Source: Acidobacteriota bacterium | Lineage (GTDB): Bacteria > Acidobacteriota > Terriglobia > Versatilivoradales > Versatilivoraceae | Direction: 5' to 3' | Assembly (NCBI GenBank): GCA_028875575.1 | Contig: JAPPDF010000026.1 | Span: 1-48,110 of the forward strand | Length of the DNA stretch: 48,110 nucleotides | Part shown: positions 1-14,361 of the stretch, piece after piece | Position numbering within the stretch: position 1 is the stretch's first letter | Layout of the letters: each line of letters begins with the position of its first letter | Notes under the pieces: generated by a model | Seen by the model: only the letters and a program-made list of their open reading frames with translations | Told to the model about the DNA's origin: nothing | Database searches by the model: none | Translations under genes and position numbers: made by a program

Positions 1-566
1 ACAAGGCTTCCAGTAGAACTCTATCACTCCCCCCTTGAGGGGGAGTCGGCGAGGCCAACGCGGCGCCCCGAAAGCGAAGCCCGCAGTCGAACCGGTGGGG
101 GTCCAGTCTCCCAGGTTCGTAAGAGGCCCCTGTTTCTCCCTGTATGATCTGCCCGGCAGGGCAGGAGCGTTACCTGGCTGGAACAGCGCCCAGCGCCAAG
201 TGTCGAAAAACCGATTCATAGTCAAACAGGAGCAGTGAATCACAGATGGACACGAATGAACACAGATTACTCTTGGTAGCGGATCGATCCTCGATTGCAG
301 GCGTCCACAGCTCGAGTGGAAGAGGCTGGTGCCATGACTCCATTCAAGTCCATTGGTGCGAATTCGTGGATCTCTTTTCGCTCCATGCCTGCGGGTCTGT
401 TGCGACCCCTGGCACGGCCCGCGGCCGGGCGCCCTGTCTGGCATTCTCGGGAGTCGGGTGTTAGAGTAGCCGCACGGTGATGCTGCGCCTCCACGCTTCG
501 GGCGGGCGATCCTATTTCGCGCTACCGTCGCCAGCGACGTGGACTGCCGTTGAGGGAATTTCAGTA
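1..566. other. Non-coding leader region, no gene supported
   Basis: I see no convincing gene before the sensor kinase. The short open frames here overlap one another on both strands and have no ribosome binding site or recognisable product. The stretch holds a small palindrome (26-46) and, at about 236-270, a degenerate 'cacagatggacac' type repeat of the kind scattered between genes in many environmental genomes. Confidence 0.6.
26..46. repeat. Palindrome with CCCCCTTGAGGGGG core
   Basis: ACTCCCCC pairs with GGGGGAGT around a TTGA-containing loop. The same core, with a longer 17-bp stem, occurs at 47990-48027 near the other end of the window, so this is probably one copy of a dispersed REP-like element. 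Here the bases after the stem (cggcgagg) differ from the other copy. Confidence 0.6.
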
Positions 567-1913
567 GTGGAAATCTTTGCCGCCAACCGGGAGATATTGA
601 TTGCGCTCCTGGTCAAGCTGGGGATTATCGCCTCCCTGGCGTCCTTGCTGACTCGTTCTCAAACCTTTCGCAAAACGCTCTTTGCCGAGGAGAGGGAAGC
701 CGCGGAGAAACTCACCCTCATCCGGTTTTGGGGTCTGCCGCTCTGTATCGGGGTGGTCATCCGAGGCGCCGGGGTGGGCAGCGGGACCATCAATCCGTTC
801 GCTGCCTTCGACCTCAGCCTGGAGGGCACTTTCATTGCCGGTCTCCTGGGCGGCACCGTCGTCGGAGCCATTGTCGGGGGCTGCGTGGGGATGGTGGCGC
901 TGCTGCAGCAGCAGGAGTGGGCGGCCCTGGCGATCTACCCGACCCTGGGGCTGTTGAGCGGGCTGCTGCGCAACCTTTCGCCCAGGAAAGAAGAGATCTG
1001 GAACTTCTCGCCCTTCGTTTTTATCAACCTGATTCTTTCCTTCTTTTCCAGGCAGCTTTTCAGCAAGAGCGGCTGGCAACTCATCTTCTTTTTCAGTTGC
1101 GTCGGCGTGGAGGCCCTGCGGCAGCTACTGGGACAAGCATTGACCTCGTCGCGACTGTTTTATTTTCCCACCGACAGCCTGATCGTGTTTGCCCTGATTC
1201 TGGTGGCCTCGCTGAGCTGCATCGGAGTCACCCTGAAGGTCTGGAACAACACCCGGCTGGAAATCAAGCTTGCCGAGCAGGAGGTGCTGGTGGTGAGGGC
1301 CCGCCTGGACGCCCTGGCCAATCAGATCAATCCTCATTTCCTCTTCAACACCCTGAACTCCATCGCGTCGCTGATCCGTTCCAACCCCGCCAAGGCGAGA
1401 GCCACTGTCCTGAAGCTTTCGCACATCCTGCGCAAGCTGTTGCAGGGACACGAAAACTTCATCCCTCTGCGGGAGGAAGTGGAGTTTATCGACAACTACC
1501 TGGACATCGAAGTGAGTCGCTTCGGGAAAGACAAGCTGAGAGTCGAAAAGGAAATCGACGATCGGACGCTGTCCTGCATGATTCCCAGCATGATCCTGCA
1601 GCCGATCATCGAGAACTCGATCAGACACGGCATTTCGCCCAAGATCGAAGGGGGCCGAATCAGGATTTGCTCGGTGCTCCAGGAGGAACGCTTGTGTATT
1701 CAGGTTGCCGACGACGGGCTTGGAATTTCCAACGACAAGCTGTCTTCGATCTACCACTCCGGAATCGGTATCAGTAACGTGCTGGAGCGGTTGAAGGTGG
1801 CTTATCAGACCGATTTCGCATTTACGGTGAGCAGCCGGCCCGGGGAAGGCACCTTTACCCATATTGAAATCCCCCTGCAGGAATCCCGCGAAAACCGGGC
1901 GGCCGGAGCCTGA
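567..1913 (+). CDS. LytS-type membrane sensor histidine kinase
   Basis: This is a sensor kinase of the LytS/YehU (HPK8) class, acting in the inner membrane and predicted to phosphorylate the LytTR regulator encoded just downstream. The N-terminal half has several hydrophobic segments resembling the 5TM-Lyt sensor region (for example around 'FIAGLLGGTVVGAIVG'). The C-terminal half carries the His_kinase signature NPHFLFNTLNS, with the phosphoacceptor His codon at 1335-1337, and an ATP-binding domain with an N-box (ENSIRHG) and G-box (DDGLGIS). I favour the GTG at 567 (448 aa), which has GAGGG ten bases upstream; an in-frame ATG at 477 has no ribosome site. The ligand cannot be told from sequence. 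No LytTR-independent output domain is present. Confidence 0.88.
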   Translation: MEIFAANREILIALLVKLGIIASLASLLTRSQTFRKTLFAEEREAAEKLTLIRFWGLPLCIGVVIRGAGVGSGTINPFAAFDLSLEGTFIAGLLGGTVVGAIVGGCVGMVALLQQQEWAALAIYPTLGLLSGLLRNLSPRKEEIWNFSPFVFINLILSFFSRQLFSKSGWQLIFFFSCVGVEALRQLLGQALTSSRLFYFPTDSLIVFALILVASLSCIGVTLKVWNNTRLEIKLAEQEVLVVRARLDALANQINPHFLFNTLNSIASLIRSNPAKARATVLKLSHILRKLLQGHENFIPLREEVEFIDNYLDIEVSRFGKDKLRVEKEIDDRTLSCMIPSMILQPIIENSIRHGISPKIEGGRIRICSVLQEERLCIQVADDGLGISNDKLSSIYHSGIGISNVLERLKVAYQTDFAFTVSSRPGEGTFTHIEIPLQESRENRAAGA

Positions 1914-1940
1914 TTGGTTCCGGGGAGAGAAAATCCTGAG

Positions 1941-2708
1941 ATGCCTATTTCCTGTATCCTGGTTGACGATGAGGAGTTGGCCCTGGAGGAGCTTCACTTC
2001 CTGCTGGATTCGGTTCCCGGCGTCGGGGTGGTCGGCCAGGGCCGCAACGGGGTGGAAGCCATTCGTCTGGTCAAGGAGTTGGAGCCGGATCTGATGTTTC
2101 TCGACATTCAGATGCCTGGACTCAACGGTTTTCAGGTGGTTCACCAGCTGGTCAAGGAAGAGGTTCTGCCTCAGGTCATTTTTGTCACGGCTTACGACCA
2201 GTATGCGGTCAGGGCCTTTGAGGTCAACGCGGTGGACTACATCCTCAAGCCGGTTGAAAAATCCAGGCTGGAAATGGCCATCCAGAGAGCAAGGAAGCAA
2301 CTGGAGTCCAATGTTCCGGTCGACGACCGGATCAGGAACCTGCTCAAGCAGTTCATTCCGGCCACCCCCAGGAAGTCGAAGCTTCTGGTCACGGACAGGA
2401 AACGCCACCTGATGGTCGATGCCGACGACATTGTCTTTGCCAGCGTTTCGGATGGCTGTGTTCAGGTGTCCACCCGGGATCTCAATGGGGAGACCCACTA
2501 TCGAACTCTGGAGGAGTTGCAGGCCAATCTGGATCCGCAGGTCTTCTGGCGTGTTCATCGGTCCTTCCTGGTAAATATCAACAGGATCAAGGAGGTGGTT
2601 CCCTGGTTCAACCGGACCCTGCAGCTCAAGATGGCCGACCAGGCCGGGACCGAAATACCGGTGAGTCGTTCCAACTCCCGAAAACTGAAGGAATACTTGA
2701 AGCTGTAG
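1941..2708 (+). CDS. LytTR-family response regulator
   Basis: This 255-aa regulator is the likely partner of the upstream kinase, whose stop lies 27 bases before. Residues 1-120 form a receiver domain with acidic residues D9/D10, phosphoacceptor D55 (in FLDIQMPG), a T in 'FVTAYDQ' and K in 'YILKPVE'. Residues about 145-250 form a LytTR DNA-binding domain ('VHRSFLVNINRI' near its end is typical). The ATG at 1941 follows GGGGAGAGA; an upstream TTG at 1914 is less likely. LytTR regulators usually activate from paired direct repeats about 20 bp apart; I did not find a convincing target in this window. Kinase-regulator pairs of this type often control envelope or transport genes, but the target here is unknown. 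Confidence 0.9.
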   Translation: MPISCILVDDEELALEELHFLLDSVPGVGVVGQGRNGVEAIRLVKELEPDLMFLDIQMPGLNGFQVVHQLVKEEVLPQVIFVTAYDQYAVRAFEVNAVDYILKPVEKSRLEMAIQRARKQLESNVPVDDRIRNLLKQFIPATPRKSKLLVTDRKRHLMVDADDIVFASVSDGCVQVSTRDLNGETHYRTLEELQANLDPQVFWRVHRSFLVNINRIKEVVPWFNRTLQLKMADQAGTEIPVSRSNSRKLKEYLKL

Positions 2709-2846
2709 TGTTTTTGACACAGGAGACCAGCCTGTTCGCGAGCGGCCCGATTGCTCCTTGAGTTGGTCTTTGGCGCTGTGATAGTTTTGGGCAATGGAGG
2801 CAGATCGGAAATCAGGCTTTAGCAAACAGAAGGAGGACAAGGAACG

Positions 2847-3074
2847 GTGTCAAGCGCCTTGGATATTAGAGAGCATCTCTTGCAGTCCAGTGACGAGTTC
2901 AGAAAACTTGCCAAAGAACACAGCGCCTATGACGAAAAACTGTCCCTATTGCTGAACAGAAGTTTTCTTTCCGAGCAAGAAAAGCTCGAGGAAGTGACCT
3001 TGAAGAAGTTGAAGCTGCGGGCCAAGGACCGAATGCAGCAGATGATTCAAGCCCAGAGGCAGCAGCAGGACTGA
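2847..3074 (+). CDS. DUF465 (YdcH-like) small coiled-coil protein
   Basis: A 75-aa, highly charged, largely helical protein matching the DUF465/YdcH family in length and pattern: 'LAKEHSAYDEKL' at residues 22-33, then a Lys/Glu-rich helix ('LKKLKLRAKDRM') and a Gln-rich tail. The family is widespread and its role is not established. It starts with GTG; AGGAGG at 2831-2836 supports this start. It is followed by a rho-independent terminator at 3148-3174, so it ends its own transcript or the one that begins with the two-component genes. Confidence 0.85.
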   Translation: MSSALDIREHLLQSSDEFRKLAKEHSAYDEKLSLLLNRSFLSEQEKLEEVTLKKLKLRAKDRMQQMIQAQRQQQD

Positions 3075-3147
3075 AGGTCCGGGTGGGCGGGCTTGGCTGA
3101 GGCCCGCCAGGGAATGGTCGGACCTTGAAGGATGTTTGGCCGGATCG

Positions 3148-3174
3148 AAAGGGAACCCTGCGGTTCCCTTTTTT
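3148..3174 (+). terminator. Rho-independent terminator
   Basis: GGGAACC (3151-3157) pairs with GGTTCCC (3162-3168) around the loop CTGC, followed by six T. Three A before the stem also pair with the first three T. It lies 74 bases after the DUF465 stop codon and is the clearest intrinsic terminator in the window. Confidence 0.88.
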
Positions 3175-3206
3175 CGTTCCGGCAGACAATGTTGCAGCCG
3201 GTCGAG

Positions 3207-3255
3207 CCCACATTTCTCACCGGGGAGTCGATCGAGGCAGTCAATATCTACAAGA
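3207..3255 (+). repeat. Decayed single end related to the 21.2-kb MITE
   Basis: CCCACATTTCTCACCGG here matches CCCGCATTTCTCACCAG, the terminal repeat of the element at 21174-21424, at 15 of 17 positions. Weaker similarity continues inward ('gaggcag', then 'acctttaattgg' against 'accttgattgg'). No opposite end is nearby, so this looks like a solo, degraded end left in the psd upstream region. Confidence 0.5.
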
Positions 3256-3436
3256 CCTTTAATTGGATGCATTCAACATTTTGATAATAAAAATCATTGT
3301 ATCCTTATTTCCGCGAGCCGGTGAGGAATCCGAGTGAGAGAGCAGCGGCTCCAAGGCTGCTGACATCCTGGCAGGTGACGGCTTCCACCCGGCACCTGAT
3401 ATATAATGGATGGGCTACGAAGCCAGGGTCGCTACC

Positions 3437-4057
3437 ATGAAGATCGCCGCTGATGCCTTTGTCTTCCTGATCCCCCTGCTGGTGATCACCGGTCTGCTGT
3501 GGATCATGGGCTTCATGCTGCTCGGGTCGGTTTGTCTGGGGATCGCTCTTTTGGTTGGGCTCTTTTTCCGCGACCCCCACCGGAATATACCGGGCGAAGA
3601 GGATCTGGTTCTGGCTCCGGCGGACGGGAAGGTCGTGGATTTGGCGAAGCAAGCGGATGGGACCACCAGGGTTTCCATCTTTCTCTCCCTTTGGGACGTG
3701 CACATCAACCGCTCGCCGATCGCGGGCACCATCCAGGATGTTTGCTATCATCCGGGAAAATTCCGAATGGCCTTCGACCGGCGCGCTTCGGTAGAGAACG
3801 AGTGCAACGTACTGACGGTCGCCAACGGTTCCTTGACAGTCCGTTTCAGTCAGATCGCCGGGATATTGGCGCGTCGAATCGTATGCTGGAAGAAGCCTGG
3901 TGACGCGGTCGAGTCCGGCGAGCGCATCGGCTTGATTCGGTTCGGCTCCAGGGTGGATGTTTTTGTTCCCGAAACGGTGGTTCTGGAATTGAGTCGGGGA
4001 ACTCGGGTGCGGGGAGGCAGCACCGTAATCGGAAGGGTCGTGCGCAATGAGGAGTAA
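3437..4057 (+). CDS. psd: Phosphatidylserine decarboxylase, small type
   Basis: Removes CO2 from phosphatidylserine to give phosphatidylethanolamine at the inner membrane, the step after PssA, whose gene overlaps this one. The protein (206 aa from the ATG at 3437) has an N-terminal hydrophobic hairpin, 'LFFRDPHR', 'APADGKVVD', 'SLWDVHINRSP' with its family-typical His, and near the C-terminus 'RVRGGST', where self-cleavage before the Ser should create the pyruvoyl cofactor. The length fits the short Psd/archaetidylserine-decarboxylase-like group. An in-frame ATG at 3410 is possible, but a TATAAT at 3402-3407 sits just before it, which makes the 3437 start more natural. Family starts also resemble 'MKIA..'. 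Confidence 0.93.
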   Translation: MKIAADAFVFLIPLLVITGLLWIMGFMLLGSVCLGIALLVGLFFRDPHRNIPGEEDLVLAPADGKVVDLAKQADGTTRVSIFLSLWDVHINRSPIAGTIQDVCYHPGKFRMAFDRRASVENECNVLTVANGSLTVRFSQIAGILARRIVCWKKPGDAVESGERIGLIRFGSRVDVFVPETVVLELSRGTRVRGGSTVIGRVVRNEE

Positions 4058-4865
4058 TTCCCAAAAACGCCGGTTTCGGCGGGGCATTTACGTCCTGCCG
4101 ACGCTGTTCACCATCGGGACCATCTTCTGCGGATTTTTTGCGGTCACCAACGCCCTCAAGGGTGAATTCAACCTGGCTGCCATTGCCATCGGCTTTGCCG
4201 TGGTGTTCGATGGGCTGGACGGCAGGATCGCCCGAATGACCAACTCCTGCAGCGAATTCGGCGTGCAGATCGATTCCCTGGCCGATGTGGTTACCTTTGG
4301 TCTGGCTCCGGCCATACTGGCCTATCTCTGGGGAGTTCGGACACTCGCTCCGGAGTCGCCCCATTCGCTGCACCTGCAACAACTGGGATGGATCGTTTGC
4401 TTTGGCTTCCTGGTGTGTGGCGCCATGCGGCTGGCGCGTTTCAACATCCAGAGCGCAAAGCCCTCGCCCTCGGGAACCGGATCGGAAAGGCCCTTTGTGG
4501 GAATGCCGATTCCGGCCGGCGCAGCCATGATTGCCGCCGCCGTGCACTTTTCTCCGGAACCTCCGGAACACTGGCTCGCGGGGATTCTGTGGAATGTGCT
4601 GGTTGGATTCCTGGGCTTCTTGATGGTCAGCACGCTCAAATATCCCAGTTTCAAGCATATCGACCTCAAGAGCCGCAAGCGATTCGTCAATTTCGTGCTC
4701 CTGGCCATGCTGGTGGCGCTCATCTACTTCTACTCGCAAATCGTCCTGCTCCTCATGGCTGCCGGGTACGCGTTTTCGGGATTGGGGTGGAAGGCTTACG
4801 GCCTGGTCAAACAAAAGCCGGAAGGCGTCCTGACAGCCGGAAAGCTCAGGGCGGATGATACCTGA
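4047..4865 (+). CDS. pssA: CDP-diacylglycerol-serine O-phosphatidyltransferase
   Basis: Transfers the phosphatidyl group from CDP-diacylglycerol to L-serine, making the substrate for Psd. The CDP-alcohol phosphatidyltransferase signature DG-x2-AR-x8-G-x3-D-x3-D is complete (from 'DGRIAR' to 'GVQIDSLAD'). About seven to eight hydrophobic segments predict an integral membrane protein of the PssA-II type, and 272 aa is normal. The start overlaps the psd stop by 11 bases, so the two genes are translationally linked, a common arrangement in bacteria. The following 151 bases before the next gene show no terminator. Confidence 0.95.
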   Translation: MRSNSQKRRFRRGIYVLPTLFTIGTIFCGFFAVTNALKGEFNLAAIAIGFAVVFDGLDGRIARMTNSCSEFGVQIDSLADVVTFGLAPAILAYLWGVRTLAPESPHSLHLQQLGWIVCFGFLVCGAMRLARFNIQSAKPSPSGTGSERPFVGMPIPAGAAMIAAAVHFSPEPPEHWLAGILWNVLVGFLGFLMVSTLKYPSFKHIDLKSRKRFVNFVLLAMLVALIYFYSQIVLLLMAAGYAFSGLGWKAYGLVKQKPEGVLTAGKLRADDT

Positions 4866-5016
4866 ACCCCCGGCATGTCCGAGCCGGGACCCCCGGGCCT
4901 CTGTGGTTCTCCGCCCGAAGCGCCGCGGCTGCGGCCGAATCCCTGTCCCCGCTTCCAGGGTAGCGGGGTCCACGAACAAGGCCTTTCCATCTCCTGCATC
5001 ATTGCGGTAACTGCCG

Positions 5017-5973
5017 ATGCCTCGATCGCTGATTCTGGTAGACGTGCCTCTGGCTTCCTTTATTGAAGAGCTGTTTGCTCCGGACTGCCGCTCGGGACCC
5101 TGGAGTTTGCTGGAGGAGGGATCCAGGGAATCCCTGCAGGAGGTCGCGGGACTTTTTCTTTACGGTCATCCCATTATTGACGGGCCCTTTATGGACCGCT
5201 TGCCCAATCTCAAAGTGATCAGCAACTTCGGTGTCGGCATCGACCATGTGGATCTTGCGGCCGCGGCGACCCGGGGCATTGCGGTGGGGAACACCCCCGG
5301 AGCGGTAGAAGGAGCCACCGCCGACCTGACCATGGCCCTGCTGCTGGCCTCAGCCCGCAACCTGGTTGCCGGTGACCGCTTTGCACGTGGGCCTGACTTT
5401 CTGTACTACGACCCCTCGCTGTTCCTGGGACGAGAAGTCCACGGCAGCACGCTCGGAATTGTCGGCCTGGGCCACATCGGGCGTGAGGTGGCTCGTCGGG
5501 CTCGCGGATTCGACATGCGGATTCTCTACCACTCCCGGCACCGAAAGCCGGTGGCGGAGAGCGAGCTGGGAGCGGAGTATGCCAGCCTGAGGGAACTTCT
5601 TGAACAATCCCATTTCGTGACGCTCAATGTTCCCATGACGCCGGAGACCAGGCACCTGATCGGAGAGGAGCAGCTTTCCTGGATGCGTCCGGACGGCATT
5701 CTCATTAACGTGGCCCGGGGAGGGGTAGTGGATCACGAGGCACTCTATCGGGTCCTGGCCGACAAGAGGATTGCCGGCGCCGCCATTGATGTCACCGAAC
5801 CTGAGCCATTGCCACGCGACCACCCGCTGCTGCAATTGACCAACCTGGTGATCACTCCTCACCTGGGTTCAGCCGGATCGCGGACCCGCCTCCGCATGGC
5901 CCGGATGACCGTGGACAACATTCGAGCCGGTCTGCAAGGCAAGCCCCTTCCCTACGCGGTCGAACAGTTCTGA
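5017..5973 (+). CDS. D-2-hydroxyacid dehydrogenase, hydroxypyruvate/glyoxylate reductase type
   Basis: A 318-aa NAD(P)-dependent oxidoreductase of the D-isomer 2-hydroxyacid dehydrogenase family. The Rossmann motif GLGHIG is at 150-155; catalytic R234 ('NVARGGVVD'), E263 ('EPEPLP') and H282 ('PHLGSA') are all present. Arg/His residues after the second strand ('YHSRHRKP') suggest NADPH rather than NADH. The 'DVTEPEPLP..HPLL' block resembles glyoxylate/hydroxypyruvate reductase more than 3-phosphoglycerate dehydrogenase, and there is no C-terminal ACT domain. It ends two bases before the M16 gene, so they share an operon. Substrate is inferred, not proven. There is no strong Shine-Dalgarno before the ATG. 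Confidence 0.85.
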   Translation: MPRSLILVDVPLASFIEELFAPDCRSGPWSLLEEGSRESLQEVAGLFLYGHPIIDGPFMDRLPNLKVISNFGVGIDHVDLAAAATRGIAVGNTPGAVEGATADLTMALLLASARNLVAGDRFARGPDFLYYDPSLFLGREVHGSTLGIVGLGHIGREVARRARGFDMRILYHSRHRKPVAESELGAEYASLRELLEQSHFVTLNVPMTPETRHLIGEEQLSWMRPDGILINVARGGVVDHEALYRVLADKRIAGAAIDVTEPEPLPRDHPLLQLTNLVITPHLGSAGSRTRLRMARMTVDNIRAGLQGKPLPYAVEQF

Positions 5974-5975
5974 GC

Positions 5976-8801
5976 ATGGTCCCCACACGGTCCAATTGGC
6001 GAGCGGCGGTTCTCTGCGGTTGGCTGGGACTGTTGAGCCCCATCGGCCTGGTGGAGCCCGCCAATTCCTGCCACGCCTCGCAAGACAATGCAGCCGACTC
6101 TCCACCGCTGAGAATCGTCGGGCCCTTTATGTCTCGAGAGGATGTCGGGCCCTTCACCAAGGTCGTGTTCAAGAACGGCCTGTCGGTGCTCCTTTTCGAG
6201 AGGAGCAACACGCCGCTGGTGGCCATGGTGACTTACGTCAAGGCCGGCCGCCTGCACCAGGACGCATCCAGTCAGGGTTTCTGGGATTTCTGGTCTCCGC
6301 TGCTGCTTCATTCCCCATTAACCGGTGGACAGGAAACGGTTGCCCGGGAAGCCAGGAGAATCGGAGCGGTGTTGGAAACCGGGGTGGGTGAGGACCATGC
6401 CTGGTTTTCCACTGTTCTTCCCCGAGAAGCCTATCGGAAGGGATTGGACCTTCAAGTCGCCGCTCTTGAGAAATGGAATCCGTCGCCCGAGAGAGTGCGG
6501 AAACTTCTACGAACAGTCCGCCAACCGCGCCGATTCAGAAAGGCCTCCCCGGAGCGCGAGTACGGCCGGCAGCTGTTTGACCTGGCGTTGAGAAGGGGAA
6601 GGGGATTCGATCAAAGGACCGGTTCCCCCGGCAATCTGCATGACATCGACGGTTCTCGATTCAGCAGAATTCATAGTCGTTGGTTCGCTCCCGGCAACGT
6701 CTTGCTCACCGTCACCGGTGATTTTGACCGGCGGGCTCTCCTGCGAGAGATCGTCAAGCGTTTCCGCGCACTTCCTACGGGACCCACGCTCGATCATCCG
6801 CCCGCTCCCACCCCCGGAACGGATGGCTTCACCTACGCCTACCGGCGGGCAGACCTGCATCAAGCGGGGATCCAGATGGGATTTCCCCTGCCTGCCGCCT
6901 TCACCCGGGACTGGTACGCCTGCAAGGTGCTGCAAGCCGTATTGACGGCAGGCAAGACTTCGGTGCTGAATCGCCGCCTGGAGATGGCCCGGTCGACGGT
7001 TCATGTGGCCGATACCGACACCATCGTTCCTGGCCAGACCGGTTTTCTCTCCCTGAGCCTTGGCGCGGGCGGTCCGGGGTTGGACCGGTCGGCGGTGACC
7101 GCTCTGGCCGCTATAGAGCGGATCAGGCGGGGCGTCCTGGCTGAATCGGACCTCCAGCGAGCCCGGGCGTTGGTCGCTGTCGAGTATCTGCAGGCACAGG
7201 AAGGGCTGTTGGGCCTGGCGATTCAGATTGCCCGGCACGAGCACCTGGCGGATTTCAAGATCTGGCAGGAAACCCTTCAGAGAATCGAATCGGTGACCTC
7301 TGAGGAAGTGGTTGCCGCAGCCCGTCGGTATCTCGCTCTGGAAAGGTGCACGCTTCTGGAGTACCAGTCGAACTCGCAGGAGATCAGGCAATTCAACTCC
7401 AACAGCTACCGCGAGTTCCTGAGAATTGCGCTGCCTCGCGCCGTCGGTGAAATCAAGGGCGACGATTGGATCGAGGTTCCCCTGCCGGAGCAGACGGAGC
7501 AGGCAGAAGGGCGGTCGTCCAGTCAGAGGGGCCCCCGGGAAATCAGCACGGCGGGGCTGGTGCCGCCCCTGAGAAAGTTCTCCATCCTCAGAGGACCTGA
7601 CGTTTGGGTCCAGGAAGGGCGCTGGTTGCCGCTTGCCTCCATGGGGATCTTCTTTCCGGGTGGCCAGGCCTCGGAACCACCAGGCAAGCAGGGAATTACC
7701 GGCCTGATGGCTGCCGCCGCAATCGGGGCCGGGTCGGCCCTGCAACCCACCCATCCGGCCGCCCTCATGGAGAGGCTGGGAGTGGAAGTGAATGCAGTGG
7801 TAAACCCTGACTATTTTGGTTTTGTGCTCCATGGTCTCTCCGAAAATTTCGCCGCCTGTGTGGATATTCTGGCGGATTCCCTGCAACGGCCGACCTTCGA
7901 AGAAGAGGCCATTACGGCTCAGAAACAGGCCTTGCGCTTGCAAACCGCAAGGCAGTTGGACGATCCACGCCGTCAGGCGGAGCAATTGTTCCTGCGGGCC
8001 GCCTACGGCGCTCATCCCTATGGCAGGGGCCCCAATGGAGAGCGGGCAGCCCTGCAAACGTTAACCCGTCAGGACCTGTTGGAATGGCACCGGCGATATG
8101 TCCTGGGTACTCAGCCGGTTGTGGTCATTGCCGGAGACGTGGAGGGGAGCTTCTTTGCCGCCAGGTTCGCGGGCAAGTGGAGGCGCTCCGGGATGTCCCG
8201 CATCGAATACGAAGACATTGCCGATCTGCAAAGTCTGACCGGGGCTCGCGCGCTCGAGGGAAGGACCGGGAAGGGGCATCCCTGGCTGGCACAGGCCGGA
8301 TTTCTGGGGCCGCAGGCCTCCGATCCGCGACTGGCGGCCTTTACGGTGCTGCAGCACCTGGCCTCAGGTATCGGAGGCAGCCTGTCGCTGGCTCTGAAGC
8401 AGCGCCAGGGTTTGGCAATCGACATCCTGGCCTCGCAGCGCCGACTGAAGTGGGGGGGATACTTCTTTGCCCGCCTGACGGCTGCACCCACTGACGGTGC
8501 CAGGGCTCTGGAGGCAGTGCGAGCTCAGCTGACCGCGCTGGGCGAGGGATCGCTGTCGGAGGAGACTATCGATCAGGCCAGGAGAGCAGCCATCCGAAAC
8601 TATCGGACTTCCAGCCAGCACCGGCGCCGGCAGGTTCTGGAACTGGCTGAGAAAGCTATTTTCGGACAGTCCGTCTATGACGTCACCAACACCCTGAAGC
8701 AAATCGAGGCAGTGAAATCCAAGGAAGTTGCCGCGCTGGCGCGGGAATTCTTCCGGCCGGAGCTTTTTATTGCCGGGGTGGTTCCAGGGTCCGAGCCTTG
8801 A
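5976..8801 (+). CDS. Exported double-length M16 (pitrilysin-fold) protein without zinc motifs
   Basis: A 941-aa protein with an N-terminal signal-like segment (residues 1-35) followed by two M16-type units. Unit one begins near residue 60 ('VVFKNGLSVLLFERS') and unit two near 550 ('GIFFPGGQASEPPG'). Insulinase-family features are clear: 'RIGAVLETGVGEDHAWF', 'FAPGNVLLTVTGDFD' and 'YGAHPYGRGPNGE'. Active M16 units carry HxxEH after the first strand pair. Here the matching positions read GFWDFWSPL (101-109) in unit one and 'GITGLMAAA' in unit two, so all His and Glu ligands are missing in both. It may be a binding or chaperone-like partner of an active M16 subunit encoded elsewhere, or act on substrate differently. 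It sits between the dehydrogenase and the VWFA gene. Confidence 0.85.
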   Translation: MVPTRSNWRAAVLCGWLGLLSPIGLVEPANSCHASQDNAADSPPLRIVGPFMSREDVGPFTKVVFKNGLSVLLFERSNTPLVAMVTYVKAGRLHQDASSQGFWDFWSPLLLHSPLTGGQETVAREARRIGAVLETGVGEDHAWFSTVLPREAYRKGLDLQVAALEKWNPSPERVRKLLRTVRQPRRFRKASPEREYGRQLFDLALRRGRGFDQRTGSPGNLHDIDGSRFSRIHSRWFAPGNVLLTVTGDFDRRALLREIVKRFRALPTGPTLDHPPAPTPGTDGFTYAYRRADLHQAGIQMGFPLPAAFTRDWYACKVLQAVLTAGKTSVLNRRLEMARSTVHVADTDTIVPGQTGFLSLSLGAGGPGLDRSAVTALAAIERIRRGVLAESDLQRARALVAVEYLQAQEGLLGLAIQIARHEHLADFKIWQETLQRIESVTSEEVVAAARRYLALERCTLLEYQSNSQEIRQFNSNSYREFLRIALPRAVGEIKGDDWIEVPLPEQTEQAEGRSSSQRGPREISTAGLVPPLRKFSILRGPDVWVQEGRWLPLASMGIFFPGGQASEPPGKQGITGLMAAAAIGAGSALQPTHPAALMERLGVEVNAVVNPDYFGFVLHGLSENFAACVDILADSLQRPTFEEEAITAQKQALRLQTARQLDDPRRQAEQLFLRAAYGAHPYGRGPNGERAALQTLTRQDLLEWHRRYVLGTQPVVVIAGDVEGSFFAARFAGKWRRSGMSRIEYEDIADLQSLTGARALEGRTGKGHPWLAQAGFLGPQASDPRLAAFTVLQHLASGIGGSLSLALKQRQGLAIDILASQRRLKWGGYFFARLTAAPTDGARALEAVRAQLTALGEGSLSEETIDQARRAAIRNYRTSSQHRRRQVLELAEKAIFGQSVYDVTNTLKQIEAVKSKEVAALAREFFRPELFIAGVVPGSEP

Positions 8802-8837
8802 CCCGTCCCCATGATACCCGTGTTAGAATCCAGTGCC

Positions 8838-9890
8838 ATGTACACCCGTTGCGCTTGGACCGCCATGGTGATCCTGCTCGGGTTGGCGCTGCTGTCGCCA
8901 TTGCCCTTGGCGGGACACGGCCCTCCACCCGGAAGTCCACAGGAGGACGACGGGCCTTTCCGTCTGGAAGTGGATGTGGACCTGGTGGTGTTGAACGTCA
9001 CGGTGGTGAACGAAAACGGAGACAATGTCACCGACCTGACGCGGGAAGATTTTACGGTTTTCGAGAACGGGATCCGGCAGGACATCTCAACTTTTTTCCC
9101 GGTGGAGGCTCCCTTCAAGTTGGTGCTGCTGGTCGACACCAGCATCAGCACTCGAAACAATCTCAACCTGATCAAGGATGCCGCCCGCAACTTCACCAAG
9201 GAACTGCGTCCCGACGACCAGATATCGGTCACCGAAACCCACTTTTTCCCCCAGGAAGTTCAGAAGTTCACCAATAGACGCAAGCTGCTTCGAAGAGCCA
9301 TCAAGCGGTTGTCCACCTATTCGGTCGGCGGCTCTCGGGTCTACGACGGGGTGGACATGGCCCTCAAGAGCCTGCAACGGACTCGCAGCGGCCGCAAGGC
9401 CATCGTGGTGCTGAGTGACGGAATGGAGAACTCCAGCCGGGTGTCTTTCGATGAATTGCGCAGACGACTGGCCCAGGACGATGCCGTCTTCTATCCCATC
9501 ACTATCCTGAACAAGGACCGGCAGAAGCAGATCCTGGAACGCTATATCCGGGAAAGCGAGGACAAAGAGGAGGATCCCTACGTGGAAAACGCTCGGCTGA
9601 GTCTCTCGGTTCTGGAGGAGGTCTATCAGATTCAAACCGAGCGATTGAGCCAGCTTTCCAACGAGACCGGCGGAAAAATGTTCCTGGTGGCCGACCTGTC
9701 GGACCTGAAAGGAGAATACTCCAAGGTTGCCCATGAATTGCGGCACACCTTCAGTCTGGCTTACTATTCCAACAGCCCCGCTACACAGGGTGGAATGCGG
9801 CGAGTCCGGGTAGAGGTGAGAGATCCCAGCCTTCGGGCCAGGACCCGCACCACCTATTTCGTGCCTGAGACGGATCGGGCCGGCTTCTGA
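8838..9890 (+). CDS. VWFA-related Acidobacterial domain protein, exported
   Basis: A 350-aa protein with a signal peptide (about residues 1-26), a short beta domain ('FRLEVDVDLVVLNVTVVNENG', 'LTREDFTVFENG') and a von Willebrand A domain. The metal-ion-dependent adhesion site DTSIS is at 100-104, followed by 'GGSRVYDGV' and 'VLSDGMENSS', so metal binding looks intact. The C-terminus ends in a family-typical 'VRDPSLRARTRTTYF'. Genes of this kind are abundant in Acidobacteriota and are thought to act in periplasmic or surface protein contacts; the precise role is unknown. I chose the ATG at 8838 over 8811 because the signal peptide then begins cleanly. A TAGAAT box at 8824-8829 lies just upstream. 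Confidence 0.88.
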   Translation: MYTRCAWTAMVILLGLALLSPLPLAGHGPPPGSPQEDDGPFRLEVDVDLVVLNVTVVNENGDNVTDLTREDFTVFENGIRQDISTFFPVEAPFKLVLLVDTSISTRNNLNLIKDAARNFTKELRPDDQISVTETHFFPQEVQKFTNRRKLLRRAIKRLSTYSVGGSRVYDGVDMALKSLQRTRSGRKAIVVLSDGMENSSRVSFDELRRRLAQDDAVFYPITILNKDRQKQILERYIRESEDKEEDPYVENARLSLSVLEEVYQIQTERLSQLSNETGGKMFLVADLSDLKGEYSKVAHELRHTFSLAYYSNSPATQGGMRRVRVEVRDPSLRARTRTTYFVPETDRAGF

Positions 9891-10062
9891 ACGGTCTGCT
9901 CCGAAATATTGCCGGTGCAGAGGATCGTTTCCGGCCGGGTTGCACTTGCGGCCGGGTCACCGGAGGCATCCGGGACGGTTTTTCGCCGGCGGGCAGTTGC
10001 TTCTTGCTCGAGTGCTTGAGGGTAAAAGGGGTTGAGGAGAGCGCTTCCCCGCGGAAGGGCGG

Positions 10063-10821
10063 TTAATGGATGGTGTCGTTATCGCGGCGTTGGCGTTCTT
10101 TCCTGTTGAGGTATACCTCGAATTTTTGTCGGGCCCGCCGAAAACGGTACTCCAGGTAAGCGTCCTTGATCGGTTGATACCATCTCGCTCCCGGCCGGCC
10201 TCGATAGGGACCTCGCTTCAGATAGAGGTAGCCCACCAGCATGCCGCCGAGGTGAGCCGCATGGGAAATTCCGGAGGCGCTTCCGGACAAGCTCGAAAGG
10301 AAGGCAATGCCCCCGAAGACCATCACGGCGATTTTGGCGGGAAGCGGGAAGAACAGCATCACGTAGATGATGCGGTCGGGAAAGGTCATCCCGTAAGCCA
10401 GCAGGACGCCATAGATGGCTCCCGAAGCCCCCAAGGTCGATCCCTGATAGGAAAAGAAGTTGACCACCGTGATGCAGAGGCCGGCGCCGATTCCGGTTAC
10501 CAGGAAGTAGCGCCAGAATTGCCGCCCTCCCCAGTAACGCTCCAATTCGCACCCGAACATGAAAAGGATCAGCATATTGATCAGCAGGTGAAAGACGCCG
10601 GCATGCAGGAAGATGTAGGTAAACAACTGCCAGAGATAAAGGCTGCCGAGCACCATCGAAGGGGTGAGGCTGAACAGAGCCGTGATCGGTCCGCTCAGTC
10701 CTCCCGAAAGGACCTGCATCACGAACACCACCACGCAGGCGATGATGATCCACTTCACCGTGGGTGTCAGGGGCCCCCCAAAGGAGATGGAGCTGGTCGC
10801 GTATCGATAGCGGTAATTCAT
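10063..10821 (-). CDS. Rhomboid-family intramembrane serine protease
   Basis: A 252-aa integral membrane protease that cuts transmembrane helices. Catalytic Ser is S133 in 'GASGAIYG', and the catalytic His is H190 in 'AAHLGG'. 'WQLFTYIFLHAGVFHLLINM' carries the conserved His/Asn of the oxyanion region, and 'ELERYWGG' is the L1-loop E-x-x-W-G motif. Six transmembrane helices are expected. The soluble tail after residue 205 is very basic ('RKERQRR'). It is transcribed away from the sulfatase-like gene, with 157 bases between starts. The + strand shows 'ctcacctcaagg' after its start codon, i.e. CCTTGAGGTGAG on the coding strand as ribosome site. Confidence 0.93.
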   Translation of the reverse strand: MNYRYRYATSSISFGGPLTPTVKWIIIACVVVFVMQVLSGGLSGPITALFSLTPSMVLGSLYLWQLFTYIFLHAGVFHLLINMLILFMFGCELERYWGGRQFWRYFLVTGIGAGLCITVVNFFSYQGSTLGASGAIYGVLLAYGMTFPDRIIYVMLFFPLPAKIAVMVFGGIAFLSSLSGSASGISHAAHLGGMLVGYLYLKRGPYRGRPGARWYQPIKDAYLEYRFRRARQKFEVYLNRKERQRRDNDTIH

Positions 10822-10978
10822 GAACTCACCTCAAGGAAAGGTGCGCTGGGGGCTTGGGCTATTGTAGCGGGTTTTGGTGGCAATGCCATTCCGAAACAAC
10901 CGGGAGGCAGGGTCAATCGGCACGATTCCCGGATTGCGCCGTGACCGGGCCGGATGGCAGGTGGAGGACCGCAATTTC

Positions 10979-12535
10979 ATGAAGATCATGCTTGCGCTGG
11001 TGCTTGCCCTGTGGATGCTTTACGGGGGTTCGGAATTCCACGCCTCCCAGCGCGAGGGCCCGGCGGAGGAGACTCAAGAGAATCCAGGCGCTGAGGATGC
11101 CAAGGGTTCCGGAGCGGCCGAGGAAGGTGGAGAAGTTGAAGAAGTTAAAGAAGGTGAAGAAGTTGAAGAAGAGGAGCCGCCTCGTCCCCCCAACGTCCTG
11201 TTGATCCTGGTGGATGATCTGGGCTATGGGGACCTGTCCAGTTCGGGCGCGGAGGACTTGCAGACCCCTCACATCGACGCTCTGGTCGAATCGGGCATGC
11301 GCTTCAATCAATTTTATGCGAATTCGACGGTGGGAGCTCCCACCCGCGCGGCACTCTTGACCGGAAGGTACCCTGACCTGGTAGGAGTCCCGGGAAACAT
11401 TCGGCCCGAGCCCGAGAGGAGTTGGGGCTACCTGAATCCGGAGGCAACGCTGCTTCCCGGTTTGCTGCAGCAGGCGGGATACCAGACCGCCCTGATCGGC
11501 AAGTGGCATCTGGGTCTGGAATCGCCCAATCTCCCCAACGAGCGGGGATTCCACCTGTTCCGGGGGTTTTTGGCCGACCGGATGGACGACTATTTCCTTC
11601 ACACGCGCCGCGGCGTGAACCACATGCGGTTCAATGCAGAGACCATCGAGCCGGCCGGACATGCCACCGACCTCTTCACCCAATGGGCGATCGACTATCT
11701 GATGGATCGGGCAGAGGACGACCAGCCGTTTTTTCTCCTTCTTGCCTACAATGCCCCTCGTGCGCCGGCTCAACCGCCGCCTTTCCACCTGGAGCGGCTG
11801 GCGCAGCGGAGTGGGGGGCTGAGCGAAAAACGGGCCCGTTTGGTGGCTCTCATCGAGCATCTGGATGAGGGAATCGGAATGGTGATGGAGGCGCTCCGGG
11901 AAAACGGGCAGGACAGCGAAACCCTGGTGTTGTTTACCAGTGACAATGGCGGGGACCTGCGGGCGGAAGCCAACTGCGGGGACCTGCGGGGTGGAAAGAG
12001 GGAGATGTACGAGGGAGGGATTCGGGTACCGCTGGTGGTGGTCTGGCCGGAGAAAATCCGTCCCGGCACTACCTCCAACCGGCTGGCGCTGACCATGGAT
12101 CTTTTCCCGACCATCTGTACGGTGGCGGGGCTGACGGTGGAGTCGGAGACCGACGGAGTGTCCCTGTTCAGAACCCTGGTGGGGCAAATGGCGCCGCCGA
12201 TCGAACGCACCCTCCATTGGGTTCGCCGGGAGGGAGGGCGACTCCACCAGGGACAAGACTACTATGCGGTCCGCCAGGGGCACTGGAAGCTGCTGCAGAA
12301 CTCACCCTTCGAGCCCTTCAAGCTGTTCAATGTGAGGGAGGACCCCCTGGAAGAACACGACCTTGCCGAACAGGAGCCCCGCGTGGTTTCCAGGCTCTCG
12401 CGCATTCTTCGACTGCGGATCCAAAAGGCCGGCGCCGTTCCCTGGCAACCCGGGCCGCCCCCTCCGTCCGAGTCGGAAGTCCCGTCCGAGCCGGAAGCTC
12501 AGTCCGATTCGGAAGCTTCCACGATCTTGCCGTAG
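10979..12535 (+). CDS. Exported sulfatase-family protein lacking the formylglycine residue
   Basis: A 518-aa alkaline-phosphatase-fold protein of the type I sulfatase family. It has a signal peptide (about 1-22), then a Glu/Lys-rich linker to residue 72, then the sulfatase domain. Metal ligands are in place: D79/D80 ('VDDLGYGD') and 'SDNGG' near the middle; 'GKWHLG' is also intact. The core sulfatase motif should be C/S-x-P-x-R-A-A-L-L-T-G-R, but here it reads GAPTRAALLTGR with Gly119 (codon 11333-11335) where Cys or Ser must be oxidised to formylglycine. Normal sulfatase chemistry is therefore not expected. I start at the ATG at 10979 (GGAGG at 10963-10967), since the ATG at 10874 would bury the signal peptide. 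The last codons overlap the 3' end of the convergent nitrilase gene. Confidence 0.85.
   Translation: MKIMLALVLALWMLYGGSEFHASQREGPAEETQENPGAEDAKGSGAAEEGGEVEEVKEGEEVEEEEPPRPPNVLLILVDDLGYGDLSSSGAEDLQTPHIDALVESGMRFNQFYANSTVGAPTRAALLTGRYPDLVGVPGNIRPEPERSWGYLNPEATLLPGLLQQAGYQTALIGKWHLGLESPNLPNERGFHLFRGFLADRMDDYFLHTRRGVNHMRFNAETIEPAGHATDLFTQWAIDYLMDRAEDDQPFFLLLAYNAPRAPAQPPPFHLERLAQRSGGLSEKRARLVALIEHLDEGIGMVMEALRENGQDSETLVLFTSDNGGDLRAEANCGDLRGGKREMYEGGIRVPLVVVWPEKIRPGTTSNRLALTMDLFPTICTVAGLTVESETDGVSLFRTLVGQMAPPIERTLHWVRREGGRLHQGQDYYAVRQGHWKLLQNSPFEPFKLFNVREDPLEEHDLAEQEPRVVSRLSRILRLRIQKAGAVPWQPGPPPPSESEVPSEPEAQSDSEASTILP
11120..11180 (+). repeat. Glu/Val/Lys-coding low-complexity repeat
   Basis: Units like 'gaagttgaagaa' and 'gaaggtgaagaa' repeat in-frame inside the sulfatase-like gene and encode the acidic linker (EVEEVKEGEEVEEEE). 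The period is a multiple of three, so copy changes would alter linker length without breaking the frame. Confidence 0.7.
12466..12519. repeat. 18-bp tandem repeat at the overlapping gene ends
   Basis: Three imperfect 18-bp units start at 12466, 12484 and 12502 (consensus GTCCGAGYCGGAAGCTCM). On the + strand they encode the sulfatase tail 'SESEVPSEPEAQSDSEAS'; the last unit is also the antisense end of the nitrilase copy 1 (EASESD). The sulfatase C-terminus therefore seems to have grown by duplication of nitrilase antisense sequence. Confidence 0.7.
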
Positions 12536-13344
12536 TACTGGGGCCTGCGGTCCTTGAAGCGGTTGATTTCGTGTTTGCCGGGAACGCGGGTGATGTGCTT
12601 GTCGCGAGCGGCAGAGGGATCGATTTCAGCGAAGATGATGTCTTCATCCTCGGGGCCGGCCAGGGCCAACGTCCGGCCCGAGGGATCGGCGATACGGCTT
12701 GTGCCGATGAAGCGAAACCCTCTCTCCCGGCCGACCCGATTGACCGCCACCGAATACACCTTGTTTTCCAGGCCCCTGGCGTTGACCAGAAACTCGGCGA
12801 ACTCCTCCGCCCCCGTGGGCCAGTTGGTTGGAAGCAGAATCATGTCGGCTCCCTGGAGTGCCATGGTGCGCGCGCTCTCCGGGAAGGATCCGTCGTAGCA
12901 GATGTTGAGCCCGATGCGTCCAAGAGAGGTCTGGTGCACCCCGAAACCCAGATCTCCAGGGTCCACGAAGCGGTCCACTCCCAAATAGGGTAGATGCACC
13001 TTGCGGTACTTGCCCACCACCCCCTCCGGTCCAATCAAGACCGCCGCATTGAAGCAGCGGTCACCGTCTTTCTCCAGCATCCCCAGAACCAGGTAGGCCC
13101 GGGTTCTGTGGCAGAGACCGGCCAAAAGTTGAGTGGAAGGCCCGGGAATGGATTCGGCGTAGGGAAGGGCTTCCTGGAGGCTTTCGAAACAGTAACCCGT
13201 CAGGGCGCATTCGGGAAAAACCACCAGTCGAGCCTGCTTGGCGACGGCGATCTCCACCGAATCGATCATCCCCGCCAGGTTGGCCTCCTTGTCCATCAGG
13301 GTGGGGTCCATCTGCACCCCGGCCAGCGTGAATTTTTCAGGCAT
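12499..13344 (-). CDS. Carbon-nitrogen hydrolase (nitrilase superfamily), copy 1
   Basis: A 281-aa cytoplasmic nitrilase-superfamily enzyme, hydrolysing an unknown amide, nitrile or carbamoyl substrate. The Glu-Lys-Cys triad is complete: E45 ('FPECAL'), K115 ('YRKVHLP') and C149 ('NICYDGSFPE'). There is no signal peptide. The frame stays open upstream to 13935, but that part is a shadow; the ATG at 13344 is set by GGAGG five bases before it. It overlaps the stop of copy 2 by 8 bases and its own 3' end overlaps the convergent sulfatase gene by 37 bases. It differs from copy 2 at about 17 positions, nearly all after residue 115 (for example Y120 against C). Confidence 0.9.
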   Translation of the reverse strand: MPEKFTLAGVQMDPTLMDKEANLAGMIDSVEIAVAKQARLVVFPECALTGYCFESLQEALPYAESIPGPSTQLLAGLCHRTRAYLVLGMLEKDGDRCFNAAVLIGPEGVVGKYRKVHLPYLGVDRFVDPGDLGFGVHQTSLGRIGLNICYDGSFPESARTMALQGADMILLPTNWPTGAEEFAEFLVNARGLENKVYSVAVNRVGRERGFRFIGTSRIADPSGRTLALAGPEDEDIIFAEIDPSAARDKHITRVPGKHEINRFKDRRPQYYGKIVEASESD

Positions 13345-14260
13345 TGTCACCTCCGCTATAAAAGGCGTGCTGATGTAGACGGGTTGTGGTGAATGTTCCC
13401 GGGTCCGGGTCGGAAGCTTCCACGATCTTGCCGTAGTACTGGGGGCGGCGATCCGTGAAGCGGTTGATTTCGTGTTTGCCGGGAACGCGGGTGATGTGCT
13501 TGTCGCGAGCGATGGAGGGATCGATTTCAGCGAAGATGATGTCCTCTTCCTCGGGACCGGCCAGGGCCAGGGTCCGGCCCGAGGGGTCGGCGATACGGCT
13601 TGTGCCGATGAAGCCAAACCCTCTCTCCTGGCCGACCCGATTGACCGCCACCGAATACACCTTGTTCTCCAGGCCTCTGGCGTTGACCAGAAACTCGGCG
13701 AACTCCTTGGCCGCCGCGGTCCAGTTGGTTGGCAGCAGAACCATGTCGGCTCCCCGAAGTGCCATGATGCGTGCGCTCTCGGGAAAGGATCCGTCGTAGC
13801 AGATGTTGAGGCCGATACGTCCCAGAGGGGTCCGGTGCACCCCGAAACCGAGATCTCCGGGGTCCACGAAGCGGTCCACTCCCAGACAGGGCAGATGCAC
13901 CTTGCGGTATTTGCCCACCACCCCCTCCGGTCCAATCAAGACCGCCGCATTGAAGCAGCGGTCCCCGTCCTTTTCCAGCATCCCCAGAACCAGGTAGGCT
14001 CGGGTTCTGTGGCAGAGACCTGCCAGGAGCTGGGTGGAGGGACCGGGGATGGATTCAGCGTAGGGAAGGGCTTCCTGGAGGCTTTCGAAACAGTAACCCG
14101 TCAGGGCGCATTCGGGAAAAACCACCAGTCGAGCCTGCTTGGCGACGGCGATCTCCACCGAATCGATCATCCCCGCCAGGTTGGCCTCCTTGTCCATCAG
14201 GGTGGGGTCCATCTGCACCCCGGCCAGCGTGAATTTTTCAGGCGTCTTCGTCGATTCCAT
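13337..14260 (-). CDS. Carbon-nitrogen hydrolase (nitrilase superfamily), copy 2
   Basis: The upstream member of a tandem pair, 307 aa, about 94 % identical to copy 1 by my alignment, with the same Glu-Lys-Cys triad. It differs by a short N-terminal extension (MESTKT in place of M) and by about 25 extra C-terminal residues ('PGTFTTTRLHQHAFYSGGDNA'). The final codons GGA GGT GAC AAT GCC TGA contain the ribosome site and start codon of copy 1, so translation of the two is coupled. I start at the ATG at 14260; an upstream start at 14356 would run through a REP-like repeat. No strong ribosome site is visible before 14260. Two slightly different isozymes, perhaps forming mixed oligomers, are plausible. 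Confidence 0.88.
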   Translation of the reverse strand: MESTKTPEKFTLAGVQMDPTLMDKEANLAGMIDSVEIAVAKQARLVVFPECALTGYCFESLQEALPYAESIPGPSTQLLAGLCHRTRAYLVLGMLEKDGDRCFNAAVLIGPEGVVGKYRKVHLPCLGVDRFVDPGDLGFGVHRTPLGRIGLNICYDGSFPESARIMALRGADMVLLPTNWTAAAKEFAEFLVNARGLENKVYSVAVNRVGQERGFGFIGTSRIADPSGRTLALAGPEEEDIIFAEIDPSIARDKHITRVPGKHEINRFTDRRPQYYGKIVEASDPDPGTFTTTRLHQHAFYSGGDNA

Positions 14261-14328
14261 GGGTCGAGTATGGACGAAGGGTTGAAATGAGTGCCTGGGG
14301 ATACCCCGGATGGCCTGGAATGCGCCCA

Positions 14329-14361
14329 CCCGGGAGCGCGGGCGTCCCGCCCGCATTCTTG
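14329..14361. repeat. REP-like GC-rich palindrome
   Basis: GCGGGCG (14338-14344) pairs with CGCCCGC (14348-14354) around TCC, within 'gggagcgcgggcgtcccg'. This resembles a dispersed intergenic repeat often seen in high-GC environmental genomes. It lies upstream of the nitrilase pair. No other full copy is in this window. Confidence 0.5.

Follow-up and report, generated by a model that had tools for sequence, protein, structure and literature searches.

The locus considered here raises the question of why a bacterium would keep a full-length protein of a peptidase fold after its catalytic site has been lost, and what such a protein could be doing. The window, i.e., the whole stretch of 48,110 nucleotides analysed, carries at 5976-8801 (forward strand) an open reading frame of 941 amino acids, P0001, with an ATG start and without internal stop. 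An earlier inspection of the letters, referred to below as the sequence-only reading, had described it as a two-unit M16 protein with both zinc sites erased, exported and possibly recruited as a binding or assembly subunit. The analysis leaves us nearly certain that P0001 is dead yet maintained. The features discussed are collected in Table 1.

Table 1. Features of P0001 and its immediate neighbours, in window coordinates.
Feature	Coordinates	Strand	Basis
M16 double-unit pseudopeptidase gene P0001	5976..8801	+	ORF; Pfam; AlphaFold
N-terminal hydrophobic segment, aa 1-44, likely export signal	5976..6107	+	read by eye from the sequence
Unit 1 (D1+D2), aa 55-470, active-subunit type but dead	6138..7385	+	profile match to 3amj_C
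DFWSP, aa 104-108, HxxEH column of unit 1	6285..6299	+	alignment; predicted helix 102-111
L177, auxiliary Glu column, 7 residues before the third ligand	6504..6506	+	alignment
P184, third zinc-ligand (Glu) column	6525..6527	+	alignment
Unit 2 (D3+D4), aa 530-938, inactive-subunit type	7563..8789	+	profile match to 3amj_B; VIA
D3, aa 530-725, most constrained part	7563..8150	+	pN/pS; columns invariant in dead proteins
GLMAA, aa 576-580, unit-2 equivalent of HxxEH	7701..7715	+	alignment
K808..I815 in place of the R/Y pair	8397..8420	+	alignment
D-2-hydroxyacid dehydrogenase gene	5017..5973	+	2 bp upstream of P0001; order kept in genus; Pfam
VWFA (TIGR03436) gene	8811..9890	+	9 bp downstream of P0001; neighbour conserved in genus only

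The two-unit M16 architecture is borne out by three lines of evidence. Pfam places PF05193 in two stretches of P0001 (95.9 bits) and PF00675 in unit 2 only (residues 554-684, 47.1 bits), the corresponding region of unit 1 being too decayed to score. The AlphaFold2 model, built on an alignment of 33 window and locus sequences, has a pLDDT of 80.7 and a pTM of 0.84, and its Foldseek search yielded full-length matches to the single-chain P. gingivalis protease 9ldy (TMq 0.73), insulin-degrading enzyme and FusC. With VIA-align, unit 2 (531-941) reached Z 39.1 against 3eoq (rmsd 2.8 over 402 residues) and Z 35.9 against 3amj_B; these rows cover mostly unit 2, and the fold of unit 1 rests on the full-length Foldseek matches and the model. 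The two-unit fold and the PF00675/PF05193 content place P0001 in the M16/insulinase superfamily. In the family profile, unit 1 is matched by 3amj_C (281.7 bits), named "zinc peptidase active subunit", and unit 2 by 3amj_B (191.5 bits), the "inactive subunit"; by these matches, the family unites a half of the active type with one of the inactive type in a fused chain. P0001 is probably exported, given its N-terminal segment. Residues 1-47 have a pLDDT below 50 in the model. A lipobox was ruled out, as the Cys near the segment end varies within the genus.

In the alignment to active relatives, the H-x-x-E-H position of unit 1 is taken by D104-F-W-S-P108 and its counterpart in unit 2 by G576-L-M-A-A580, exactly where the sequence-only reading had seen them, and the model sets DFWSP within a predicted helix (102-111) at the position of the zinc helix. 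The replacement goes further than this motif: the third-ligand Glu has become P184 and the auxiliary Glu L177 (active relatives read EIQVVLQE), and the R/Y pair in D4 has become K808 and I815 (active members read REKQxLAY). P0001 therefore lacks what defines an active M16 enzyme, i.e., one or more units with HxxEH followed by a Glu downstream, and the R/Y pair in D4. The statement that both zinc sites were erased needs narrowing, however. An absent HxxEH in unit 2 is the usual state in M16B fusions and in inactive subunits. As none of the relatives examined has HxxEH in unit 2, the claim should read one site erased: judging from the alignments, this unit never bore a zinc site in the family, and only the site of unit 1 has been lost.

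Intact His/Glu ligands elsewhere in the chain, which would have spoken against a dead protein, were also looked for. No H..EH or HE..H occurs anywhere in P0001, and relocated ligands were rejected, there being neither HxxEH/HExxH nor a genus-wide H/E motif in the sequence. That P0001 retains enzymatic activity through a catalytic centre of another kind or at another place is thus extremely improbable: some histidines are invariant in the genus (94, 112, 141 and others), but no conserved alternative ligand motif was recognised, and all known determinants were lost together.

The replacements are shared by the whole genus. GFWD[FL]W[STP]P is read in all seven genus genomes with a readable unit 1, and GLMAA in all five with a readable unit 2. 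These genomes belong to Acidobacteriota, Terriglobia, include "Candidatus Versatilivorator vitaminiformans", and presumably come from sponge-dwelling bacteria, to judge by the isolate names. A sequencing or assembly artefact is unlikely, as independent genomes agree, among them the complete chromosome OX638355.1 (L077).

Nor does P0001 appear to be the silent half of a pair. No active paralogue of the same family was found in its genome and no second M16 gene nearby. The other M16 genes with HxxEH that the sequence-only reading had thought worth seeking do exist (C40, C52, C55 and C69), on other contigs and distant from P0001. It is consequently not a pseudopeptidase with an adjacent or same-family active partner, as are those of the alpha-MPP, AlbE or SPH2682 type. 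The same genome also encodes a further M16_C protein of 573 aa without HxxEH (G000:C74:23827-24366, L050), not close to the P0001 family.

Selection on the gene was evaluated from substitution rates. Among the genus copies of P0001, dN/dS is 0.277-0.345, with an upper 95% limit of at most 0.414, and the reading frame is open in every copy read. Active family members have values of 0.08-0.20, the neighbours tested with bootstrap (VWFA and the dehydrogenase) 0.15-0.17, and other dead lineages 0.18-0.36. P0001 is under purifying selection, less tightly than an active member, and given that its dN/dS lies above those of its neighbours and active relatives, relaxed constraint is part of the picture.

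The constraint is unevenly distributed along the protein. In terms of domain identity, the catalytic D1 is the most conserved domain in active groups, and D3 takes its place in every dead group. In the window genus, the pN/pS of D3 is 0.239 [0.183-0.310] vs 0.430, 0.433 and 0.450 for D1, D2 and D4, respectively; D1 of the active members of a second GTDB family, f3, has 0.070. For the dead f3 proteins, D4 has the lowest value and the intervals overlap; there, pN/pS does not establish the shift to D3. Within the acidobacterial clade, active and dead members alike carry a D3 signature, S..RGP.V...E....P....FF.GG...E.....GIT.LM, which the active outsiders L097, L110, L165 and L179 lack. Ten residues (S536, G540, G562, G563, E567, G573, T575, D612, G615 and W704) are invariant across 33 dead proteins. 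The simplest reading of these patterns is that D3 carries a function independent of catalysis.

These values bear directly on the possibility that P0001 is a decaying gene, dispensable in a sponge symbiont and with a frame just not yet destroyed. Although its dN/dS is raised (0.28-0.35 vs 0.08-0.20 for active relatives) and D1, D2 and D4 drift about equally, no confidence interval comes near 1, each genus copy read has an open frame, D3 is clearly more constrained than the other domains, GFWD.W.P is conserved throughout the genus, and other dead lineages persist with dN/dS of 0.18-0.36. We regard decay as quite improbable.

Outside the genus, the nearest relatives, members of its own GTDB family, retain HVVEH, HVIEH or HVMEH together with EIQVxLQE and REKQALAY. 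A careful tree, with the motif columns left out, joins the window genus to these active forms with support 93/98, and a quick tree of 86 rows gives the same joining (SH-aLRT 100); both groups share a longer linker with an E[IV]S[ST]A motif. Judged by this topology, catalysis would have been lost in the window genus after its split from the active same-family lineages. Among the latter, one active gene (L060:1703-4542, genome G011) is split between the units into two overlapping ORFs, with HVVEH in the first, and resembles a two-gene M16B heterodimer; the split in L059 lies elsewhere and may be an assembly error.

Loss of the motif is also seen in f3, where HVIEH is replaced by R-V-I-S-G or H-V-I-A-G in two genomes (L069/L091 and L070). 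The neighbourhood of the dead f3 gene is that of the active one: Nudix, aminotransferase, nnrDE, tsaE, M16, DUF4097-like, zf-HC2/HEAT and sigma, with the Nudix, aminotransferase and sigma names read by eye. Since dead and active copies occupy the identical locus, the gene stayed in place when catalysis was lost, i.e., the loss in f3 occurred in situ. In all, 49 of the 86 rows lack H..EH, 43 of them in a large third dead assemblage that includes f8, where the order nnrDE-tsaE-M16 is kept. The underlying phylum search, with the window protein as query and E <= 1e-40, found matches in 70 of 396 genomes and is not a census.

Parsimony on the 86-row tree requires three changes. A single clade of all dead forms was rejected (AU p 9e-5), as was a grouping of the window genus with the dead f3 proteins (AU p 2.6e-7). 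Constraining the window genus with the large dead assemblage was not rejected (AU p 0.22), and its loss may therefore not be separate from that of the large lineage. Hence, the trees suggest two firm losses in the family, with three as the best estimate. Given its long deep branches, the large assemblage may itself hold more than one.

In the window genus the gene order is LytS, LytTR, Psd, PssA, 2-hydroxyacid dehydrogenase, M16, VWFA, rhomboid (opposite strand) and sulfatase, conserved as far as the contigs reach. Given gaps of only 2 and 9 bp around the M16 gene, dehydrogenase, M16 and VWFA probably form one transcript. The VWFA neighbour reported by the sequence-only reading is real (TIGR03436, 181.7 bits). 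Outside the window genus, VWFA does not adjoin the M16 gene of dead or active family members, and a general partnership was rejected beyond the genus by the neighbourhood comparison; its product is a weak partner candidate for P0001. As for the suggested recruitment as a binding or assembly subunit, what stands is a dead, full-length, selected and probably exported protein, and what falls is the VWFA gene as general evidence of an assembly partner, this adjacency being confined to the genus. No partner gene is conserved across the family, neighbours varying between dead lineages, and in the conserved block 477-12532 Pfam detected none of the TonB-dependent import genes that would be linked to M16 in a FusC/PqqL system.

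Signalling genes accompany the M16 gene in parts of the large dead lineage. In one sub-clade, an ECF sigma gene directly and divergently adjoins the dead M16 gene in 11 of 11 tree rows (L170, L171, L176, L184, L190, L192, L196, L200, L202, L208 and L212), with 60-79% identity to that of L170; such a gene is also adjacent in L094, L096, L154 and L199. In another sub-clade, 12 loci (L092, L158, L160-L163, L167, L168, L172, L173, L178 and L182) have a gene for a HAMP-SpoIIE (PP2C-type) membrane protein directly downstream on the same strand. The Pfam identification covers two sigma genes and one SpoIIE gene, to which the others were matched by BLAST. The pairing fits binding or sensing better than decay. 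Neither kind of direct pairing was seen in the window genus.

These neighbours suggest a further alternative, in which the protein is a substrate-capturing regulator: its closed chamber would bind the ancestral peptides and sequester, present or sense them, as receptor or decoy, signalling to the neighbouring regulatory system. The retained fold and chamber halves, the ECF sigma or HAMP-SpoIIE pairing in a related dead lineage, and the LytS-LytTR two-component pair in the conserved block of the window genus all agree with this. However, the substrate-binding R/Y pair and D4 are not preserved, so that binding of the ancestral substrate is probably altered, and the two-component genes lie three genes away from P0001. 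We therefore consider this alternative unlikely, if less so than decay.

The reading we favour, and to which we give a fair degree of credence, is that P0001 is a non-catalytic clamshell, an envelope binding subunit acting through D3; the evidence suggests that its main job is binding, not cutting. Its ancestor would have been an acidobacterial single-chain M16B-type enzyme in which an active unit 1 was fused to an inactive unit 2. The ancestor of the genus (Candidatus Versatilivorator and kin) would then have lost the three zinc ligands, the general base and the R/Y transition-state pair, leaving a protein predicted to be zinc-free and inactive, kept because the two-unit clamshell also does a non-proteolytic job. 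Once exported, P0001 may close on or dock an envelope protein or peptide, the D3 surface at the start of unit 2 being the putative preserved contact, and may have a structural or regulatory role as a binding subunit, much like the one ascribed to the dead core proteins of complex III. A wider version, which we put forward tentatively and as somewhat doubtful, is that the Acidobacteriota M16 family gained D3 docking before catalysis was lost; catalysis would thereby have become dispensable and been lost repeatedly, giving phylum-wide envelope binding or sensory pseudopeptidases, in some lineages connected with an ECF sigma factor or with a SpoIIE-type phosphatase.

The most familiar dead M16 proteins are mitochondrial, namely alpha-MPP and the core proteins of bc1, and are assumed to act as scaffolds. 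Core I and Core II of mitochondrial cytochrome bc1 share the M16 fold, have lost or changed their zinc sites and are assumed to play a structural part (PMC12731061). They resemble P0001 in retaining the fold without intact zinc sites, but are two mitochondrial chains bound in complex III, whereas P0001 is a single bacterial chain. Alpha-MPP is a zinc-free M16 subunit with HxxDR (PMC11266112); it needs the active beta subunit in order to work and makes use of a glycine-rich loop, whereas P0001 has both halves in one chain, both dead. Among bacterial systems, the two units of P0001 correspond to the active and inactive subunits of the Sphingomonas sp. A1 M16B heterodimer SPH2681/SPH2682 (PDB 3AMJ), which, however, consists of two chains, while the P0001 family is fused in one and the "active" half of P0001 is also dead. 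FusC and PqqL (6B03/6B05, 6OFS) are, like P0001, single chains of ~900-940 aa with two M16B units, and the family profile aligns end to end with them (positions 39-873 to 6b03 and 19-869 to 6ofs), as expected of a single-chain M16B protein. Both are active periplasmic proteases serving iron acquisition (PMC12731061), whereas P0001 has no HxxEH. The Flavobacterium BAM was set aside as a dead-M16 precedent, the term "M16 peptidase" being absent from the BAM papers.

Although M16 members without HxxEH are already known, the acidobacterial single-chain dead form appears to be a new variant; our literature search found no description of acidobacterial single-chain dead M16 proteins or pseudopeptidases, which is not proof of absence. 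Active and dead orthologues at one locus in sister genera, together with the dead lineages of the window genus and of many acidobacterial families, amount to a natural experiment on the roles of an M16 clamshell other than cutting, and the D3 signature offers a concrete surface for mutation and for use as bait.

Elsewhere in the window, at 12499-14356 on the reverse strand, two near-identical carbon-nitrogen hydrolase genes lie in tandem, both with PF00795, probably as the result of a recent duplication.
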